Shown here piece by piece: positions 23,748 through 51,484 of a stretch of DNA of 64,000 nucleotides. This DNA comes from Candidatus Poribacteria bacterium (lineage in GTDB: Bacteria > Poribacteria > WGA-4E > WGA-3G). The stretch is taken from positions 186,001 through 250,000 of the forward strand of contig JAJEIE010000019.1 in the NCBI GenBank assembly GCA_022827625.1, given 5' to 3'. Position 1 is the first letter of the stretch. Each line of letters opens with the position of its first letter. Below the pieces are notes generated by a model, which did no database searches, was not told the DNA's origin, and saw only the letters and a list, made by a program, of their open reading frames with translations. The translations under genes were made by a program, and so were the position numbers.

Positions 23748-26552
23748 ATGCAAGGATTATCGCTTAATTTTCGTTCAAACGCACTTTTTGCGTTAACTGA
23801 TAAAATCAAATCCAGTATTGAGGGACGGATGAGTTGGGGAGACACCTTCGGCTTAGGACTTGGTGTGAAAGCAGATAAGCATCTAATTATTTGGACACCC
23901 AAGGAGACTTCAGAAGGTGACATTCTGCCCGGTTTCGACTCAGAAGATGGCGAGCTGACGGTGAAAATGCGGCCGCGTCCGGGGGCATGGGTCTCTTGGA
24001 TTGACGAGGCGAAGGTTTCTGCTGATGCTCGCGACGATTATGATCGGGTCCACAGAAGTATACAGGAACTCGAACGCAACGCACGCCAAATCACCGATTT
24101 TGCCGATGGTGTTGTTACTGACATCACGATTCAAAACTTGGGAAAATCTCTAACGCTCTCTGAATTGACCCAAGAAGTTTTGAAGGCGCGTTTGGCAGTA
24201 CCCAGTACCGTCAAGACCGGTAGTTATGTGCTGGCGCGGGTTGATGAACCTGCTACGCAAGAGGTTCCTGCAGCTACTGTTATCATTCCAGAGCAGACCC
24301 ACATTCATCGCGTACACCTCAATGAGGATGTTCTTTTTACGCAGCTATTAAATAATGACTACAATCGACTGCTTGTTGTCATTCGAACGCATATTAAACA
24401 GTACCCTGATTTGACGGATTTAGGACACAGTTTGGCACTTCTGACGCGCCTCTCTAAGACTGTGACTGCTGAAGGTGAAAAGCCAACGGGTGCGACGGAG
24501 GCGATCAGTCCCGTCCAGGTACTCGCTACAGCAGCGGTTTACAATCCGCTCGAACCGGAAACGCTCCAGTTAGTTCCTATTGCTTTTGATGCGCCTGCGG
24601 ATGAAATTGAAGCGGCTATCACCGAGGGTGCCAAGAAAATTGAAGCGTATACGGTGAAAGCCAACCAGCACGCGTATCAGTTAATGGCACAATTTCAGCA
24701 AGGCGTGGAAACCCGTTTGAGAGCACTTGTGCTCGGACCCGGCCAGCGTGTTCACAATAAGGTGTGGGACGACTTGGTGATTCGAGAGCTACGGAACACT
24801 GTCCTCGATTTTGTCGAATTTTATGAAACCTGTCTGACGGAATATTTTGGGGCGGACATCGCAGCAGCGAAAAAGGAGATGCTTGCCCAGAATATTGATC
24901 CGATGATAGAATTTTGGCAATTACAGGATAACCCGCAGCTAACGCTGAATCATCTCATCCAATCCTGTTACAAGCTTGCGAATCAAGTCTTGGATCGCGC
25001 GACCGGACTGTTTCATGACTTAGTATTTGAGCAAGATTTCATTGAAACCGGACTTGTCAAGCAGGTGGATTTCCTCATTTTTGAGAATAACGAACTTTTA
25101 GACGAGATTTATCTTCCGAAATGGACGCGCGGGACGGTACGTGAGAAAATTGCTGGCGTCGCGCTACGGTCAACTTTACATGCGTCGCAAATTGAACGTC
25201 TTGGGACTATCTGGTTGGAATTGCTTGGACTCGCGAATTTTGTGAGTCAGCGCAAACAAGATTTTGAAGTCGTTATTCAACCGTTGGTCAATCTCCTATT
25301 GGCGACAAAAACGACGGGTCAAACACAGCGTCGAAGTCAGCAGGCACAGCAACGCCGCAGCGCTGCCAGTTTTGCCGGATTTGAAATTCCAGATGATGAT
25401 TTTGAGCAGCTCCTCAATCATGTGAAGCTGCATCTTCCAACGATAAAGCAGTGGTTGGAGCATCTGCCGCCAAAAGTAGATCAACGCCAGCATTACGCAA
25501 CCTTATGGACGTTACTGCTTGATGGTAAGCTGCGTGAACGGCTCCTCACCGATACCCAACCGACTTGTGATATTAACCTGAGTGTACCGGACCAGACAAA
25601 GCGGCTCATCACTCTCATGTTGGGAAGTACACTGATTATCCAAGCCGAAAAAGACCGAAAGTCGATAGAGCGCAATCTGAATCGGGCAATTATCTCGAAA
25701 ACCGGGCATGAATTGACGAATGTCACTACACCAGCGATGCTCGCTATACACGGGGATGCACTTCTCGCAATTCTCTATGAGGAATTATTGGGTTACCACG
25801 ACACTTTGGCGAAGCGGGTGAACCGACTCTCGAATGCCCCTCAAAAACGGAAAAAGCGGCGGCATCAGCAGGTACGGAACGGTAGTCCCGCGGATATTGA
25901 AGCGGTTGAAGCGGAACAGGAAAAAGTCAAAGAACTCATGACCTACCTGAGACCTTATCGGCAGGAGGAGGTTATCGGGGTTTTAGCGATGGCTGGACTT
26001 GATCCGCTCGCATCGAATCTTGAGGAGATTCGGCGGCAACAAGTGCTCAGTTTCGATGTCAGTGATTTGCCTGCTATCGGTGAAACATGGCTTAGCGAAA
26101 GTAAGGACATTGCGGATTATCCTAATCTACGGGTGTTCCTTCTGCAAAACCAGCTCCCTATATCTACAACGGGTAGGTTACTCATGGAATTGCGTCAGCA
26201 GTTTCCGGATGCACTCTTCAACCACGTGATAGGGCTTATCCAAGAGGTGAAGGTCCTTCAAAGCGGCGACTATCAAGGGGAATCTCTCAATCGGTTTGTT
26301 TCTTATATTTCTGAAAAGGTGTGGCGATGGGAGTTGACACAGATTACTGAGGCTGAACTCCCGCTTTTGCTCAAGGAGAAAGTCCTCGCATCAGCAATCT
26401 GCTATGAAAAAGAGGTCGAAACCTTGATGGAATATGTTGAACGTTACGATGAACTTATATCCACCAAGCTCGCTGCGGATCCGGATCTCGATGGCCATCG
26501 TCAGTATCTTGAGGAGCAGTTTCAAGCAATTGTTGAAACATTTTTGGTATAA
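23748..26552 (+). CDS. Large protein of unknown function (934 aa)
   Basis: I do not recognise this 934-residue protein. It has no signal peptide or transmembrane segment and appears mostly helical with many Leu, Gln and Glu. An N-terminal part (about 1-150) is mixed; a Gln/Arg-rich linker lies near 525-545 (TGQTQRRSQQAQQRRS); a very basic stretch is at about 705-720 (QKRKKRRHQQ); and the end is helical and acidic. No nucleotide-binding or nuclease motif is obvious. It is 61 bases downstream of the MT-A70 gene and 10 bases upstream of the next gene, so all may be cotranscribed. No ribosome binding site is clear before the ATG. Confidence 0.75.
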   Translation: MQGLSLNFRSNALFALTDKIKSSIEGRMSWGDTFGLGLGVKADKHLIIWTPKETSEGDILPGFDSEDGELTVKMRPRPGAWVSWIDEAKVSADARDDYDRVHRSIQELERNARQITDFADGVVTDITIQNLGKSLTLSELTQEVLKARLAVPSTVKTGSYVLARVDEPATQEVPAATVIIPEQTHIHRVHLNEDVLFTQLLNNDYNRLLVVIRTHIKQYPDLTDLGHSLALLTRLSKTVTAEGEKPTGATEAISPVQVLATAAVYNPLEPETLQLVPIAFDAPADEIEAAITEGAKKIEAYTVKANQHAYQLMAQFQQGVETRLRALVLGPGQRVHNKVWDDLVIRELRNTVLDFVEFYETCLTEYFGADIAAAKKEMLAQNIDPMIEFWQLQDNPQLTLNHLIQSCYKLANQVLDRATGLFHDLVFEQDFIETGLVKQVDFLIFENNELLDEIYLPKWTRGTVREKIAGVALRSTLHASQIERLGTIWLELLGLANFVSQRKQDFEVVIQPLVNLLLATKTTGQTQRRSQQAQQRRSAASFAGFEIPDDDFEQLLNHVKLHLPTIKQWLEHLPPKVDQRQHYATLWTLLLDGKLRERLLTDTQPTCDINLSVPDQTKRLITLMLGSTLIIQAEKDRKSIERNLNRAIISKTGHELTNVTTPAMLAIHGDALLAILYEELLGYHDTLAKRVNRLSNAPQKRKKRRHQQVRNGSPADIEAVEAEQEKVKELMTYLRPYRQEEVIGVLAMAGLDPLASNLEEIRRQQVLSFDVSDLPAIGETWLSESKDIADYPNLRVFLLQNQLPISTTGRLLMELRQQFPDALFNHVIGLIQEVKVLQSGDYQGESLNRFVSYISEKVWRWELTQITEAELPLLLKEKVLASAICYEKEVETLMEYVERYDELISTKLAADPDLDGHRQYLEEQFQAIVETFLV

Positions 26553-38980: not shown

Positions 38981-41900
38981 CTATCTCCTGCGTTGTGGAC
39001 TCCATTTAATCACATAATTAGATGGAATCTCTCGGACAAACATCGACGAGGCACGATCCCTATCCCCAAAACGGTATGTGACAGAACTGAGATAAAGCTG
39101 CGCTTGTGCACGGGTCATACCGACATAGAAAAGCCGACGTTCCTCTTCAAGCTCCGCTTCCGTAATATCCTGCCGCCACATCGGAAAACTCCCCTCCTCC
39201 ATACCAATGATGATGACGATCGGAAATTCTGTCCCTTTCGCTGCGTGCACCGTCATTAACGTCAGCTGCTCAGTTGTGTCGTCAAGTTCATCGACATTCG
39301 TGAGCAACTTCTGATAATCCAAGAAGTCAGTGAGCCTATTGGTATCACTCATCGATTCAAAATGAAGCACGGCGTTCATAAACTGAATACGCCGTTGCCG
39401 CCACGCAAGGTCTTCTGGAAACTCTGGCGCGGAGACCTCTTGTAATGCTTCCATATACGCCGCTGCCTGTTCCATCTCCGTTGCTTCAAGCGGAAAGCGA
39501 TCGGGTAGTTCAGGACCGTGCGTCTGCGTGAAACGTTTCGCAGCATTGAGTAACGCATCCGTCTCGGTTAAGGTGTCCTCGGTAGGAGCAACTTCTGATG
39601 GCGATGCCTCGGCTTTGGCGAGGATACCGATACCGACGAGTGGCAGAAGTTCAGCCAGAGATTTCACCTCGCGCTTGTAAGCATCAATTTTGATGAGTTC
39701 TTTAAAGATTTCTCGATTGACCGTAACATCTTCCAAGGCACCGTGTAGACGACCGTGTTCGATGCCAAATTTTTCGGCAAGTGCACCCATACTACACCGT
39801 TGTCGTGGGAACAGCCTTCGCGCCGTGGCAAGCGTGTCATAATGCGGGGCAGACAAATCCCGCCTCAAATACCGTCTGAGGTCCCGCGCCAGGATTGGAT
39901 TATCGTATCCCGCGACGTTGTGTCCAATCAATATCCGATCTTGGATGAACCCCATGAGTTCCGGCAAAACCAGTTCAATCCCTGGTGAATCTTTGACGGT
40001 TTCTGCGTCGATTCTATGAATGCGCGTGGCGGCACGTGGAATACGGCCACCGGGCGGCTTTACCAATCGATAAAACCGCTCGATCTCATCTCCTATGACA
40101 CTGAGTCGTTGTGCGGCGATCTCAACAATCTCTGCTGTTTTCGGATTGATGCCGGTCGTTTCCAGATCGTAAACGACCATATCCGCCATGTTAGGACTTT
40201 CAAAGCGGTTAATAAGCCGTTGGCAGAGTTTGAGTGCCGTGATGCTCCGAGCCCCCTCGACTCCAAGATGAATCGCATCTGTATTTATTGTATCCGCTGT
40301 TCCAATCAGAACTGTCCGCGCGTCTCTCCCACTTTCTCCGATTTCGGCAAAATCGCCGATGAGCATGTAGACGCCATTTGCTATTTGTGTTACATCGTTT
40401 TCATCAGGCGGTAAAAATTGAAGTTGCGCTGTGTGATCCAGATAGGTTTCAAGCGTCTGGTGGATAATGTGTGCCGCGCAGTATTCGTCGATCCCATGGC
40501 AGGCAATAATCTGAATCGGTTCATCGAGGTCGAGGGCACTATAGAGAACATCTTGCGCCGTTGCGAGATTCGACGGTTCAGGTTGTCTTTCGATGACCTC
40601 TAATTCTTCGGCGCGGTAGGGAGAGCGAGACTGTTCCAAAGTGTCAAAGAGATTTTGGATGATTTTATCAACCTGTTCGCCTCTAATTTCGGTCGATAGA
40701 TGCTCAAGTTGGGTCCAGAATTGGCGGACATTTTGGCGTGTCAGAGGTCCAACATCCTGTGGATATGCCTCGATATTTTTCAGGAGTTCGATAAACTCAA
40801 TGTGTTCACGCTGTGCGAGCCACTTAAGGCGCACCCATGTCAAATCGTCAATACAGGTCTCAGGAAAATTGAGCGCACGTTCCAAATCTTGTGGAAGTTG
40901 CCACTGGATAAAACGGAGATACGCGAGAATGCTCTGACTGTTTCCCTCTCCAAAGGAATTCATCGGCTGAACTCTCTGAAATTTGATGTCTGCGCGTAGG
41001 AGCTGCTCAGCCAAAACGTCTGCGAGTCTATGCGTTCGATAAAAGATTGCTATATCACGGTAAGAGTAGTTGCGTTGGGTTACCAAGTTCTCGATAACGT
41101 TGATGATACCGAGTGCTTCTGCTACAGGTGTATCGAAAGTATAATGGAAAATGTCGCGTCCAACATCTTTATGGGTTCTGAGGGTATGCTGTTTTTGTCG
41201 TTCTGTGTTTCTGGAGATGACCTCCTCTGCGGCGCGCAAAATCTTCTCACTACACCGGTAGTGATCGTCCAGTGTGAGGGTCTCTGGGTTAAAGTCGGTT
41301 CTGAAATCCTCAATATACTGTGGATTCGACCCACGCCAACTGTAGATCGCCTGATCTTCGTCAGCGACTACCATCAGGTTCCCTTCCGGTGGTGGGCAGA
41401 GCAATTGGAGTAAACGATACTGCGCGTTGTTCACATCGTGGTATTCGTCAACAAGGACATAGGAGAGTTCCTTACGGTAGGTTGCTCGGACCTCTTCTAC
41501 CCGTTCAAGCAGTTCGACGGTTTTCACAAGGAGGTCATCGAAATCGAGGGCATCGTATGCGTCGAGTTTATCCTGATAGCTTTGTAGTACACTTCGGGTG
41601 TTTTCAATAGTCCCGGATTCATAAATATCCAGTGTATCTGCTGTATCGACAGGATTCTGTAATTTACATTTGGCATTGCTGATGATGTTGCGCAGCAGCC
41701 ATACTGGGTAGTCGTCAGGATTAAGGCTTAACTCACGGACGCTTTCTGTTAGAATCTCGTCTTGGAACTCTTGGTCGAAGATGGTGAAGTTTTCGCTCAG
41801 TCCGATCTGTGTCGCATGTTTTCGGAGCACCTTGACGCAAAATGCATGAAAGGTACAAGCCTTAACACTGGATCCGTGCGGTTCACCGATTTCACGATTG

Positions 41901-42112
41901 ATGCGTTCCTGCATCTCTTCCGCTGCCTTATTGGTAAAGGTAATCGCAAGGATGTTCTCTGGCTTTATCCCGTGTTCACGAATCAGGTAGGCAATGCGGT
42001 GCGTAATGACTTTTGTTTTTCCAGTGCCGGGACCTGCGATGACAAGAAGCGGACCATCTTTATGTGTTACCGTTTTTCTCTGTTTCTCGTTTAATTCATC
42101 AAGGATGTTCAT
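38981..42112 (-). CDS. UvrD/PcrA-type helicase with internal DEDDh exonuclease domain
   Basis: Protein of 1043 residues. The superfamily 1 helicase has Walker A AGPGTGKT (about 26-33), motif II VLVDEYHD (about 219-226), motif III DEDQAIYSWRG, and, far downstream, motif V MTVHAAKGTEFPIV and motif VI RRLFYVGMTRAQ (about 955-1020). Between them an exonuclease domain lies at about 642-810: VVYDLETTGI (D-x-E), LIGHNVAGYDN and HGALEDVTVN, the H-x4-D of DnaQ-like DEDDh nucleases. A further stretch at about 530-640 (ACHGIDEYCAAHI...) has a DHH-like first strand but is not secure. The fusion suggests unwinding coupled to 3'-5' trimming in repair. Confidence 0.88.
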   Translation of the reverse strand: MNILDELNEKQRKTVTHKDGPLLVIAGPGTGKTKVITHRIAYLIREHGIKPENILAITFTNKAAEEMQERINREIGEPHGSSVKACTFHAFCVKVLRKHATQIGLSENFTIFDQEFQDEILTESVRELSLNPDDYPVWLLRNIISNAKCKLQNPVDTADTLDIYESGTIENTRSVLQSYQDKLDAYDALDFDDLLVKTVELLERVEEVRATYRKELSYVLVDEYHDVNNAQYRLLQLLCPPPEGNLMVVADEDQAIYSWRGSNPQYIEDFRTDFNPETLTLDDHYRCSEKILRAAEEVISRNTERQKQHTLRTHKDVGRDIFHYTFDTPVAEALGIINVIENLVTQRNYSYRDIAIFYRTHRLADVLAEQLLRADIKFQRVQPMNSFGEGNSQSILAYLRFIQWQLPQDLERALNFPETCIDDLTWVRLKWLAQREHIEFIELLKNIEAYPQDVGPLTRQNVRQFWTQLEHLSTEIRGEQVDKIIQNLFDTLEQSRSPYRAEELEVIERQPEPSNLATAQDVLYSALDLDEPIQIIACHGIDEYCAAHIIHQTLETYLDHTAQLQFLPPDENDVTQIANGVYMLIGDFAEIGESGRDARTVLIGTADTINTDAIHLGVEGARSITALKLCQRLINRFESPNMADMVVYDLETTGINPKTAEIVEIAAQRLSVIGDEIERFYRLVKPPGGRIPRAATRIHRIDAETVKDSPGIELVLPELMGFIQDRILIGHNVAGYDNPILARDLRRYLRRDLSAPHYDTLATARRLFPRQRCSMGALAEKFGIEHGRLHGALEDVTVNREIFKELIKIDAYKREVKSLAELLPLVGIGILAKAEASPSEVAPTEDTLTETDALLNAAKRFTQTHGPELPDRFPLEATEMEQAAAYMEALQEVSAPEFPEDLAWRQRRIQFMNAVLHFESMSDTNRLTDFLDYQKLLTNVDELDDTTEQLTLMTVHAAKGTEFPIVIIIGMEEGSFPMWRQDITEAELEEERRLFYVGMTRAQAQLYLSSVTYRFGDRDRASSMFVREIPSNYVIKWSPQRRR

Positions 42113-42350
42113 CGGATTTCCTCCGGTGCCTGCTATCGGAAGGGGGACGTATTATTTTTTGTATTTCGTGCAATGTCGTGTTTAATGCTGAGGTTATAAT
42201 GCCCGTATGGCACTTTGCCACTAATATCGGACCTATGTTATTATACCTTATTTGAGGCGAAAAATCAATACATTTCTTCCGTGAATTATACGTAATTTGG
42301 TATATACTATTTAGAGAAATACAACTCATTTTAACTTAGTAAGGAGAGAA

Positions 42351-44428: not shown

Positions 44429-44944
44429 CTACCCTCTCAAAACCGAGGCGAGGTTTTTTGCTTGACCGCATTTACTTCTTTTAATTGCTGAGTTTTGACT
44501 AAGGAAACGAATTTTAGCACGTTCAAGTTCGCGGAGTTGAAATCTGTCAATGCCTTTACCGTGAAACAACACAGGAACACATGTGATTTCAAGTGTGCTG
44601 AGTACCGCATTCGCCGCCTTAGGCAATTTTCCAAACATTTCTGTGACGAAGTCAGCAGCCCCTTGCAACTGGTCGGTTACTGTCGGTGTTTTGAAGGTGC
44701 CGCTCTTGAGTTCGATAAGAACAAGAACCAAACTATTTTGTAGAGTATCCTCGTAAAAAAGCACATAGTCGCACCGTTTCGTATTTATTTTACGCTGTTC
44801 AAACTCACATTCAAGATTTATGATCACTCGGTTACGTGGAGCATCTGTTAGGTATACGCGACAACCATCTCCACTACAAGATTTGCTAATGCATTCTTCG
44901 TGTACTTGCTTTCCAATTTCTGCGAGAAGTTCTTTTAATCCCAC
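44429..44944 (-). CDS. PD-(D/E)XK-like nuclease, partner of the ATPase
   Basis: Protein of 171 residues with the nuclease pattern D59 (RCDYVLFYED), E78-L-K80 (VLIELKSG) and a following Q92 (TDQLQGA), the order D, E-x-K, Q of PD-(D/E)XK enzymes. The N-terminal half is short and has three cysteines near KSCSGDGC. The start is GTG at 44944; the ribosome binding site AGGAGG lies inside the last codons of the ATPase gene, so the two are translationally coupled. I know no named family for this pairing; a DNA-targeting defence or repair role is an inference. Confidence 0.68.
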   Translation of the reverse strand: MGLKELLAEIGKQVHEECISKSCSGDGCRVYLTDAPRNRVIINLECEFEQRKINTKRCDYVLFYEDTLQNSLVLVLIELKSGTFKTPTVTDQLQGAADFVTEMFGKLPKAANAVLSTLEITCVPVLFHGKGIDRFQLRELERAKIRFLSQNSAIKRSKCGQAKNLASVLRG

Positions 44945-44950
44945 TCGCTG

Positions 44951-46429
44951 CTACCTCCTATCAGCTTTCTCAAGTAAGTCTTGGAGGTTAACAGAACGGT
45001 CATAGAGTTTATAAGCCACGTCTTCGTAATCTTTTGGTTCTATGCCTTCAGTGGAATCAAACGGAATGTGTTTTACTATCCCGTCCTTTTGGAACCACCA
45101 GGTTCCCACTTCTTCAGGTAACAACCACTGTGTTGATGAAATCTTTTTAGTTTGCGGGACGCCTTTTCTTTTCAGTTCACCTATCCGAATCAGGTTCGCA
45201 ATTTCTTTAAGCAGCCAGTCGCTATGGGTCGTCACAACCACGCGCACACCCGCGCGAACTAAGCCTGCAAGGATTAGGGCTATCTCAGTTTGTGCACCGG
45301 GGTGCAGGTGTGCCTCTGGTTCCTCAATAATCAGCAGGTCCCCAGGGCGAATACCACCGCGAAGGAGCAAAACTAAAGGGGCAAGCTCAGAAACCATTGA
45401 TGAGACACGAGTTAGACGAACATCTTCTTCGACTTTCTTGGAGTGATAGAGGAATTCAGGGTATCCTCCAGGGACAGGATTCATCAGAATCTGTCCTTCA
45501 AGCACATTTGATTCCAGAGCATCGGCAAGGTAAGATACTCTGTCGTCTCCTTTAACAGTTTCATTGTAAAGTATGAGTCTTTGCATGAAATCTGCTATTA
45601 TCCCTGAAAAAGTTGGGACTGCCAAGGGGGTCAGACCCGCGCGAGTTGCACCACCAACAAGGGAGCTTGCAATAACACGGTGGCTCTGCATTATACCGCT
45701 CCGAGCAGCTGGTAGGTAATACCTTTCTCTTTTTTTTATCTCAAGTCCAGGGAAAATTTCAGGACAATGTTTAAGGAATTCTTCAAAACCAAAGTTTTCT
45801 TTTTCTGTGAAAAATACTATATTTTCGTTGAGATATCCATCTACGACGGAATCGGATTTGGCAGTTTTTGTAATGTCGAAGCTCCACAGATCTTGACTCT
45901 CTTCGCGGACTTCCAAGACAATTTCCATCTCATTGGTTTGATTATCGGTTTGTTGAATTAGTTCGGAAATTGAAGCGATATCGAAGCAGCGTCCAAGTTC
46001 ATCCTCTAAATCGCGTCCCAAAAATTTGGGGTCCTCAAGACTCTGCTCTGCTAACTTACGGATTTCCTGTGGGAGATCGGAGAATCCGAAAGGTCTGCCG
46101 CTCGTTTCTAACTTGGAAACTATATCCCGAGCTTCCTCTTCGGACGACATGAAAGCAGCAGTTAGTCCCTTTCGAGAACCGTAATTAATTCTCGCCACAT
46201 CTCTGAATATATTTGGCAACGGGAGTCGTGAGAAACCTGCAGAGATTCCTTGCAGTGCATAGATAAGTGTAGAAAAATAGGTTTTACCGGTGTTGCTTGG
46301 ACCTACAAATACGGTCAACGGGCGGAGATCTATTGTGGCATTTGCGATCGGACCGAAATTCTTGACAGAAATTTCAACATTTGGATGTTTGAGCATTTCT
46401 GGTATTTCTGGTGTTTTTGTTTCGCTCAT
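44951..46429 (-). CDS. AAA/ABC-type ATPase (AAA_15/OLD-like)
   Basis: ATPase of 492 residues. It opens with VEISVKNFGPIANATIDLRPLTVFVGPSNTGKTYFS (Walker A GPSNTGKT at 43-50), the typical OLD/AAA_15 start, then a long variable insert. The signature-like SSMVSELAPLVLLLRG precedes Walker B LLIIEEPEAHLHPG, and the switch His is in VVTTHSDWLLKE. Proteins of this family pair with nucleases or toxins in phage defence (PtuA, AriA, Gabija-like cases). Here a PD-(D/E)XK-like gene follows after 6 bases. The start has GGGAG 8 bases upstream, 12 bases after the previous gene. Confidence 0.85.
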   Translation of the reverse strand: MSETKTPEIPEMLKHPNVEISVKNFGPIANATIDLRPLTVFVGPSNTGKTYFSTLIYALQGISAGFSRLPLPNIFRDVARINYGSRKGLTAAFMSSEEEARDIVSKLETSGRPFGFSDLPQEIRKLAEQSLEDPKFLGRDLEDELGRCFDIASISELIQQTDNQTNEMEIVLEVREESQDLWSFDITKTAKSDSVVDGYLNENIVFFTEKENFGFEEFLKHCPEIFPGLEIKKRERYYLPAARSGIMQSHRVIASSLVGGATRAGLTPLAVPTFSGIIADFMQRLILYNETVKGDDRVSYLADALESNVLEGQILMNPVPGGYPEFLYHSKKVEEDVRLTRVSSMVSELAPLVLLLRGGIRPGDLLIIEEPEAHLHPGAQTEIALILAGLVRAGVRVVVTTHSDWLLKEIANLIRIGELKRKGVPQTKKISSTQWLLPEEVGTWWFQKDGIVKHIPFDSTEGIEPKDYEDVAYKLYDRSVNLQDLLEKADRR

Positions 46430-49262: not shown

Positions 49263-51418
<2,156 letters not shown>

Positions 51419-51484
51419 TCGGTTTTAGAAAACGCTTCCGAAAAGAATAAGCGGCACGACCTACCGCAAGTCAGTCTATTTGCG

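Follow-up and report, generated by a model that had tools for sequence, protein, structure and literature searches.

A UvrD/PcrA-type helicase of Poribacteria with a RecJ-like domain and a DEDDh exonuclease inserted in its 2B region

Does a single poribacterial gene encode a helicase and a nuclease in one chain, and what would such a protein do? Poribacteria are uncultured, mostly sponge-dwelling bacteria. The gene in question lies in a Candidatus Poribacteria MAG, in a stretch of 64,000 bp (G000:C26:186001-250000) that is referred to here as the window. It forms a single open frame of 1043 amino acids on the minus strand (38981..42112), with the ATG at 42112 and the stop at 38981. A Shine-Dalgarno-like GGAGGA (42119..42124, minus strand) is located 7-12 bases 5' of the start codon. 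The product is a helicase of the UvrD/PcrA type whose 2B region contains two inserted domains, one RecJ-like and one DEDDh. The Pfam families UvrD-helicase (residues 7-274, E 6e-84), UvrD_C in split form (280-1011, E 2e-44) and RNase_T (PF00929, a DEDDh exonuclease; 646-803, E 4e-26) were all detected in this one frame, which agrees with the initial annotation of a UvrD-type helicase and a DEDDh exonuclease in one chain.

The N-terminal part of the helicase (residues 7-274; 41291..42094, minus strand, as are all parts of the gene given below) contains motif I (GPGTGKT, 27-33), motif II (DEYHD, 222-226) and motif III (DEDQAIYSWRG). It is followed by the first part of helicase domain 2 and the start of 2B (residues 275-495; 40628..41290), where x-I-D-D is found in place of the GIG motif of PcrA. 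Motif V (LMTVHAAKGTE) and motif VI (EERRLFYVGMTRA) are part of the C-terminal section (residues 900-1043; 38984..39415). The SF1A motifs are thus present, and G31, K32, T33, D222, E223, Q254, R260 and R1001 are invariant in 51 sequences. PcrA is the closest relative of the helicase part in both NCBIfam and the PDB. When the AlphaFold2 model of the whole protein (mean pLDDT 86.3, pTM 0.76) was compared with Foldseek, the best 50 matches were solely UvrD-type helicases, with PcrA 1pjr as the best structural match over the whole length. The GIG motif in 2B is missing from all 51 fusion sequences, indicating a UvrD-like helicase that is not a PcrA/UvrD ortholog. The C-terminal tudor domain (PF21196) was not found in the fusion protein by Pfam either. 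The same genome encodes a separate, normal PcrA with both the GIG motif and the tudor domain, in line with the contrast to usual UvrD/PcrA that had been drawn from the sequence.

In the alignment with PcrA 1pjr, matches stop at residue 483 (PcrA 490) and resume at residue 908 (PcrA 512). About 400 residues of the fusion helicase therefore stand where PcrA has about 20, at a position which, from the PcrA structure, we take to be the 2B subdomain. The insert spans about residues 505-895 and holds a RecJ-like domain and the exonuclease. The initial annotation had located the exonuclease at about 642-810, close to the borders found here (643-811), but it understated the extent of the insert. It had described an insert of DEDDh type only; the exonuclease is present, but the RecJ-like domain beside and probably around it had been overlooked.

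The RecJ-like domain (residues 505-640; 40193..40600) is a conserved alpha/beta domain between helicase and exonuclease with the signature GID-x-YCAA-x-I-I, and it is modelled confidently (mean pLDDT 89.8, AlphaFold2). A Pfam scan of the members of this middle domain yielded no match. Compared with the PDB, its profile (A2) listed Drosophila CDC45, P. furiosus RecJ and 7bhi (the RecJ-Cdc45 of Methanothermobacter, as named in the Foldseek listing) among the top entries, with E values of 0.3-0.9, none of them significant alone. In the own genome, the true RecJ was the sole other match at E<=1 (E 9e-4). Over 85 genomes and at E<=0.1, the profile found 40 matches outside the fusion family, 38 of which are in catalogued RecJ genes; the remaining two belong to genomes outside the coverage of the RecJ catalogue. 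A comparison with 45 Poribacteria RecJs in hhalign resulted in an E value of 2.5e-7 and a probability of 93%, and the real score of 49.5 was not reached in any of 100 column shuffles (<=23.4). With Foldseek, RecJ ranked first against viral models. In the general search, P. furiosus RecJ, GAN and RecJ-Cdc45 were among the best matches, intermixed with SIS phosphosugar isomerases of similar topology (best E 1e-3, TM 0.5-0.6). This mixture and the missing Pfam match would fit another Rossmann-like domain, e.g. a SIS isomerase, but we regard such an origin as very unlikely, as the sequence profiles select RecJ, at motif I, over dozens of genomes. We conclude that the domain derives from RecJ.

The catalytic residues of RecJ are largely gone. 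Motif III (DHH) is missing in 51 of 51 fusion sequences, and of the three aspartates of motif I, which correspond to Asp79/81/83 in drRecJ (PMC4846377), only the last is kept, in the remnant GID (540-542). The DHHA1 domain (PF02272) gave no Pfam match in the fusion protein. The loss of DHH and of all but the last motif I aspartate indicates that the domain is very probably dead as a nuclease. As a separate observation on RecJ in this phylum, poribacterial RecJ frames (e.g. L103, G000:C36) are about 850-940 aa long and have a long C-terminal extension resembling a helicase C-domain; many Poribacteria genomes encode a second protein that shares with RecJ only this extension.

The exonuclease is followed by helices (residues 812-895; 39428..39679), of which residues 818-833 (SLAELLPLVGIGILAK) align in an exactly collinear manner with LDLVALGTVVD of RecJ. 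We take the latter as motif IV from the description of drRecJ, in which Asp223 belongs to this motif (PMC4846377). Among 400 shuffles, 22 reached the score, 24 reached the diagonal and one reached both, and the post-exonuclease piece by itself gave a weak match to RecJ in hhalign. The metal-binding aspartate is lost, the equivalent position being mostly occupied by Lys in the fusion family. The alignment is suggestive, and residues 812-895 are probably the second half of the RecJ-like domain. The exonuclease would then lie within the RecJ-like domain, and the nesting is probably UvrD[RecJ[DnaQ]].

The inserted exonuclease (residues 643-811; 39680..40186) is of the DEDDh (DnaQ-like) 3'-5' type, with its catalytic residues D649/E651, D737, H790 and D795 where they had been placed from the sequence. 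All five are intact in 48 of 51 sequences, including the protein of the window. In L072/L073 (family f3) and L074 (family f7), active-site residues were lost and the domain was retained. Together with the known pseudo-exonuclease variants of ExoDinG (pExoDinG; PMC11981726), these copies provide an argument for a non-catalytic structural or nucleic-acid-binding module in a protein that is merely a helicase. We consider this rather unlikely, given the intact residues in the other sequences across a large divergence and the position of the dead copies on long tree branches. Strong purifying selection also argues against it: in 12 of the 14 comparisons of near pairs, the exonuclease has a dN/dS of about 0.02-0.08 (<0.1), usually equal to or below that of the helicase parts. 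The embedded exonuclease thus appears intact and is predicted to be active.

Does it serve in replication? The embedded exonuclease is the sole PF00929 domain of its genome, and phylum-wide all PF00929 matches are in the fusion gene except for two stand-alone copies (G049:C701 and G060:C2). This near exclusiveness would be expected if it were the replicative proofreader of the phylum, replacing a stand-alone DnaQ epsilon. Against this, the DnaE PHP active site HHDHEHCDH is complete in 31 of 31 genomes (the own genome and 30 others), a pattern that was scored as an active proofreader in a survey of bacterial polymerases (PMC12926913). Furthermore, the phylum-wide search found no replacement PF00929 domain in genomes that lack the fusion gene or have a dead copy, and the domain is located inside a helicase. 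We therefore judge this role highly improbable. Given the complete PHP sites, it is probably the PHP domain of DnaE that proofreads replication in Poribacteria, and the purpose of the embedded exonuclease is probably a different one.

A survey of other genomes for the same architecture, as had been suggested, covered 85 Poribacteria genomes. The gene is present as one uninterrupted frame in 70 of these; in four it is split, either where a contig ends or by a frameshift, in two it is partial, and nine lack it. The 72 distinct full-length ORFs gathered originate from many independent MAG projects. A chimeric assembly, named beforehand as a finding that would speak against the fusion, is ruled out by the occurrence of the same ORF in 70 genomes. 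The second such finding, close relatives without the insert, was not encountered either: the insert is present there, and the two candidates, G058 and G056, turned out to be ordinary PcrA. Identities of the fusion protein range from 92% within the genus down to 37% in other families, and two genomes outside the class carry the fusion protein at about 39-44% identity. The tree of fusion proteins, a quick tree with long branches that serves as a check only, matches the taxonomic families with 10 changes for 11 groups, which is the minimum and is as expected for vertical inheritance. An origin from phages or plasmids was rejected, no phage or plasmid record covering 80% of the protein. A viral origin was likewise rejected: none of 40 viral matches has the fused architecture, and their full-span matches cover only about 1.9 kb. 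In family f2 the fusion gene occurs as two diverged copies (L067 of G036:C28; L071/L066 of G039), which are adjacent in G036. Since nine of 85 genomes are without the gene and three sequences are exonuclease-dead, the fusion protein is not indispensable.

Besides PcrA, the same genome encodes a RecJ with DHH, DHHA1 and OB domains, an AddA-like protein with PDDEXK and further UvrD-family proteins. The separate presence of PcrA, RecJ and the AddA-like protein indicates that the fusion has an additional function. A PDDEXK nuclease domain, the type found in AddA/RecB, was not detected in the fusion protein by Pfam, and the distinction from AddAB/RecBCD made in the initial annotation holds. A different combination was observed elsewhere on the contig (G000:C26:421615-422772; L004:940-2706), where a UvrD-type helicase of 588 aa contains a GIY-YIG nuclease (153-226) inside its N-terminal helicase domain.

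No operon partners are conserved next to the fusion gene beyond family-level synteny, and no repair-gene operon is conserved around it. An AAA ATPase gene (AriA/OLD/PD-T4-4/PDC-M47A-like) and a gene for a 171-aa PDC-M47B/HSDR_N-like protein (44429-46429, minus strand) look like a candidate defence pair. The PADLOC similarity of this ATPase to PD-T4-4/PDC-M47A, at a distance of 2.8 kb, and the match of PADLOC GajB models to the helicase part could point to an anti-phage helicase-nuclease, Gabija-like or other. We give this interpretation little credence: GajB models are matched by any UvrD, and the GajA neighbour of Gabija was not found beside the fusion gene. In addition, the AAA pair adjoins the gene in few genomes only, the neighbours are metabolic, and the gene is present in most genomes with a tree that follows taxonomy. 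Elsewhere in the window, two near-identical 63-bp direct repeats (51293-51419) lie directly upstream of an NAD-dependent DNA ligase gene (49263-51287, minus strand), and a 934-aa ORF (23748-26552, plus strand) is without any Pfam match.

The reading that we favour, somewhat above even chances, is that of an SF1A motor with a dead RecJ-type domain in 2B and, probably nested within the latter, an active DEDDh exonuclease, the whole acting on the chromosome in DNA repair or in end-processing for recombination and not in replication proofreading. PcrA translocates 3'->5' on single-stranded DNA and DEDDh enzymes take off 3' nucleotides, so that by family behaviour motor and nuclease would work along one strand with the same polarity. 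The most likely arrangement is a motor that runs 3'-5' on ssDNA and is coupled to 3'-5' trimming, with the RecJ-like domain as a DNA-holding scaffold. The motor would bind single-stranded DNA, move 3'->5' and open the junction. The DEDDh domain would trim the 3'-ended strand in the direction of the motor, similar to the RecB/AddA nuclease of different fold. The RecJ-like domain, its catalysis lost, would hold DNA and position the exonuclease; it may stand in for the lost GIG duplex contact and perhaps holds the displaced 5'-ended strand, which an active RecJ would have cut. The analysis itself establishes the architecture, the descent of the two inserted domains, their conservation and distribution and an inheritance that looks vertical; the activities of helicase and nuclease, the link between them, the function as a scaffold and the pathway served are what we infer. 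An argument against the coupling is that 2B normally points towards the duplex still to be opened, a place in which the tracking strand should offer no 3' end, so that the geometry by which motor and exonuclease would be coupled is hypothetical. A more far-reaching account, which we put forward tentatively, is that of a phylum-wide single-chain end-processing machine UvrD[RecJ[DnaQ]], in which a captured RecJ died as a nuclease and was kept for DNA holding, a bacterial parallel to CDC45, and the nested DEDDh domain took over the cutting.

No report of a helicase-RecJ-like-DEDDh architecture was found in the literature searched, many journals being outside its coverage. The protein is a helicase-nuclease fusion of seemingly undescribed make-up, surveyed within Poribacteria (85 genomes) and in phage, plasmid and viral collections. 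If UvrD + RNase_T proteins from elsewhere are listed in architecture databases, this would reduce the novelty of the exonuclease fusion, not that of the RecJ-like part. In nearly all genomes of the phylum no other nuclease of this family is encoded, which suggests that the protein is a single-chain machine for DNA processing that has so far gone undescribed. If true, unwinding would be coupled to 3'-end trimming in an undescribed manner, in a phylum where DnaE seems to rely on PHP and other DEDDh domains are nearly missing. It would also show that a helicase has, independently of CDC45, recruited a RecJ domain that is dead as a nuclease. The contribution of a pseudo-RecJ to a helicase could then be studied on a single recombinant polypeptide, and the natural exonuclease-dead lineages provide a built-in comparison.

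Compared to known systems, the fusion protein resembles PcrA, UvrD and Rep in all SF1A helicase motifs and in its overall structural match, but differs in the large 2B insert and in the lack of GIG and the C-terminal tudor domain. ExoDinG (B. subtilis DinG) also combines a helicase and a DEDDh 3'-5' exonuclease in one chain; its helicase is an XPD-like SF2 enzyme with an N-terminal exonuclease and without a RecJ-like domain, whereas the poribacterial protein is an SF1 helicase with an internal exonuclease. AddA, RecB and AdnAB share the UvrD-type motor with a nuclease and possibly the same logic, trimming the strand that the motor pulls, but their nuclease is a C-terminal PDDEXK domain, while that of the fusion is an internal DEDDh domain, with no partner subunit seen. 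Bacterial RecJ is similar in the motif I region and the fold of residues 505-640 and differs by its DHH motif, its DHHA1/OB domain and nearly all metal ligands, which the fusion lacks. In CDC45 and the archaeal inactive RecJ of the CMG helicase, a catalytically dead RecJ-type DHH domain likewise works with a helicase, and the DHH domain of CDC45 also contains an insertion (PMC4873980). However, CDC45 is a separate protein on the MCM ring, whereas the DHH domain of the fusion is inside an SF1A helicase, with no DHHA1 detected. Taken together, the functional relatives of the fusion protein are ExoDinG, AddA/RecB and, for the dead RecJ domain, CDC45; it belongs to none of them.
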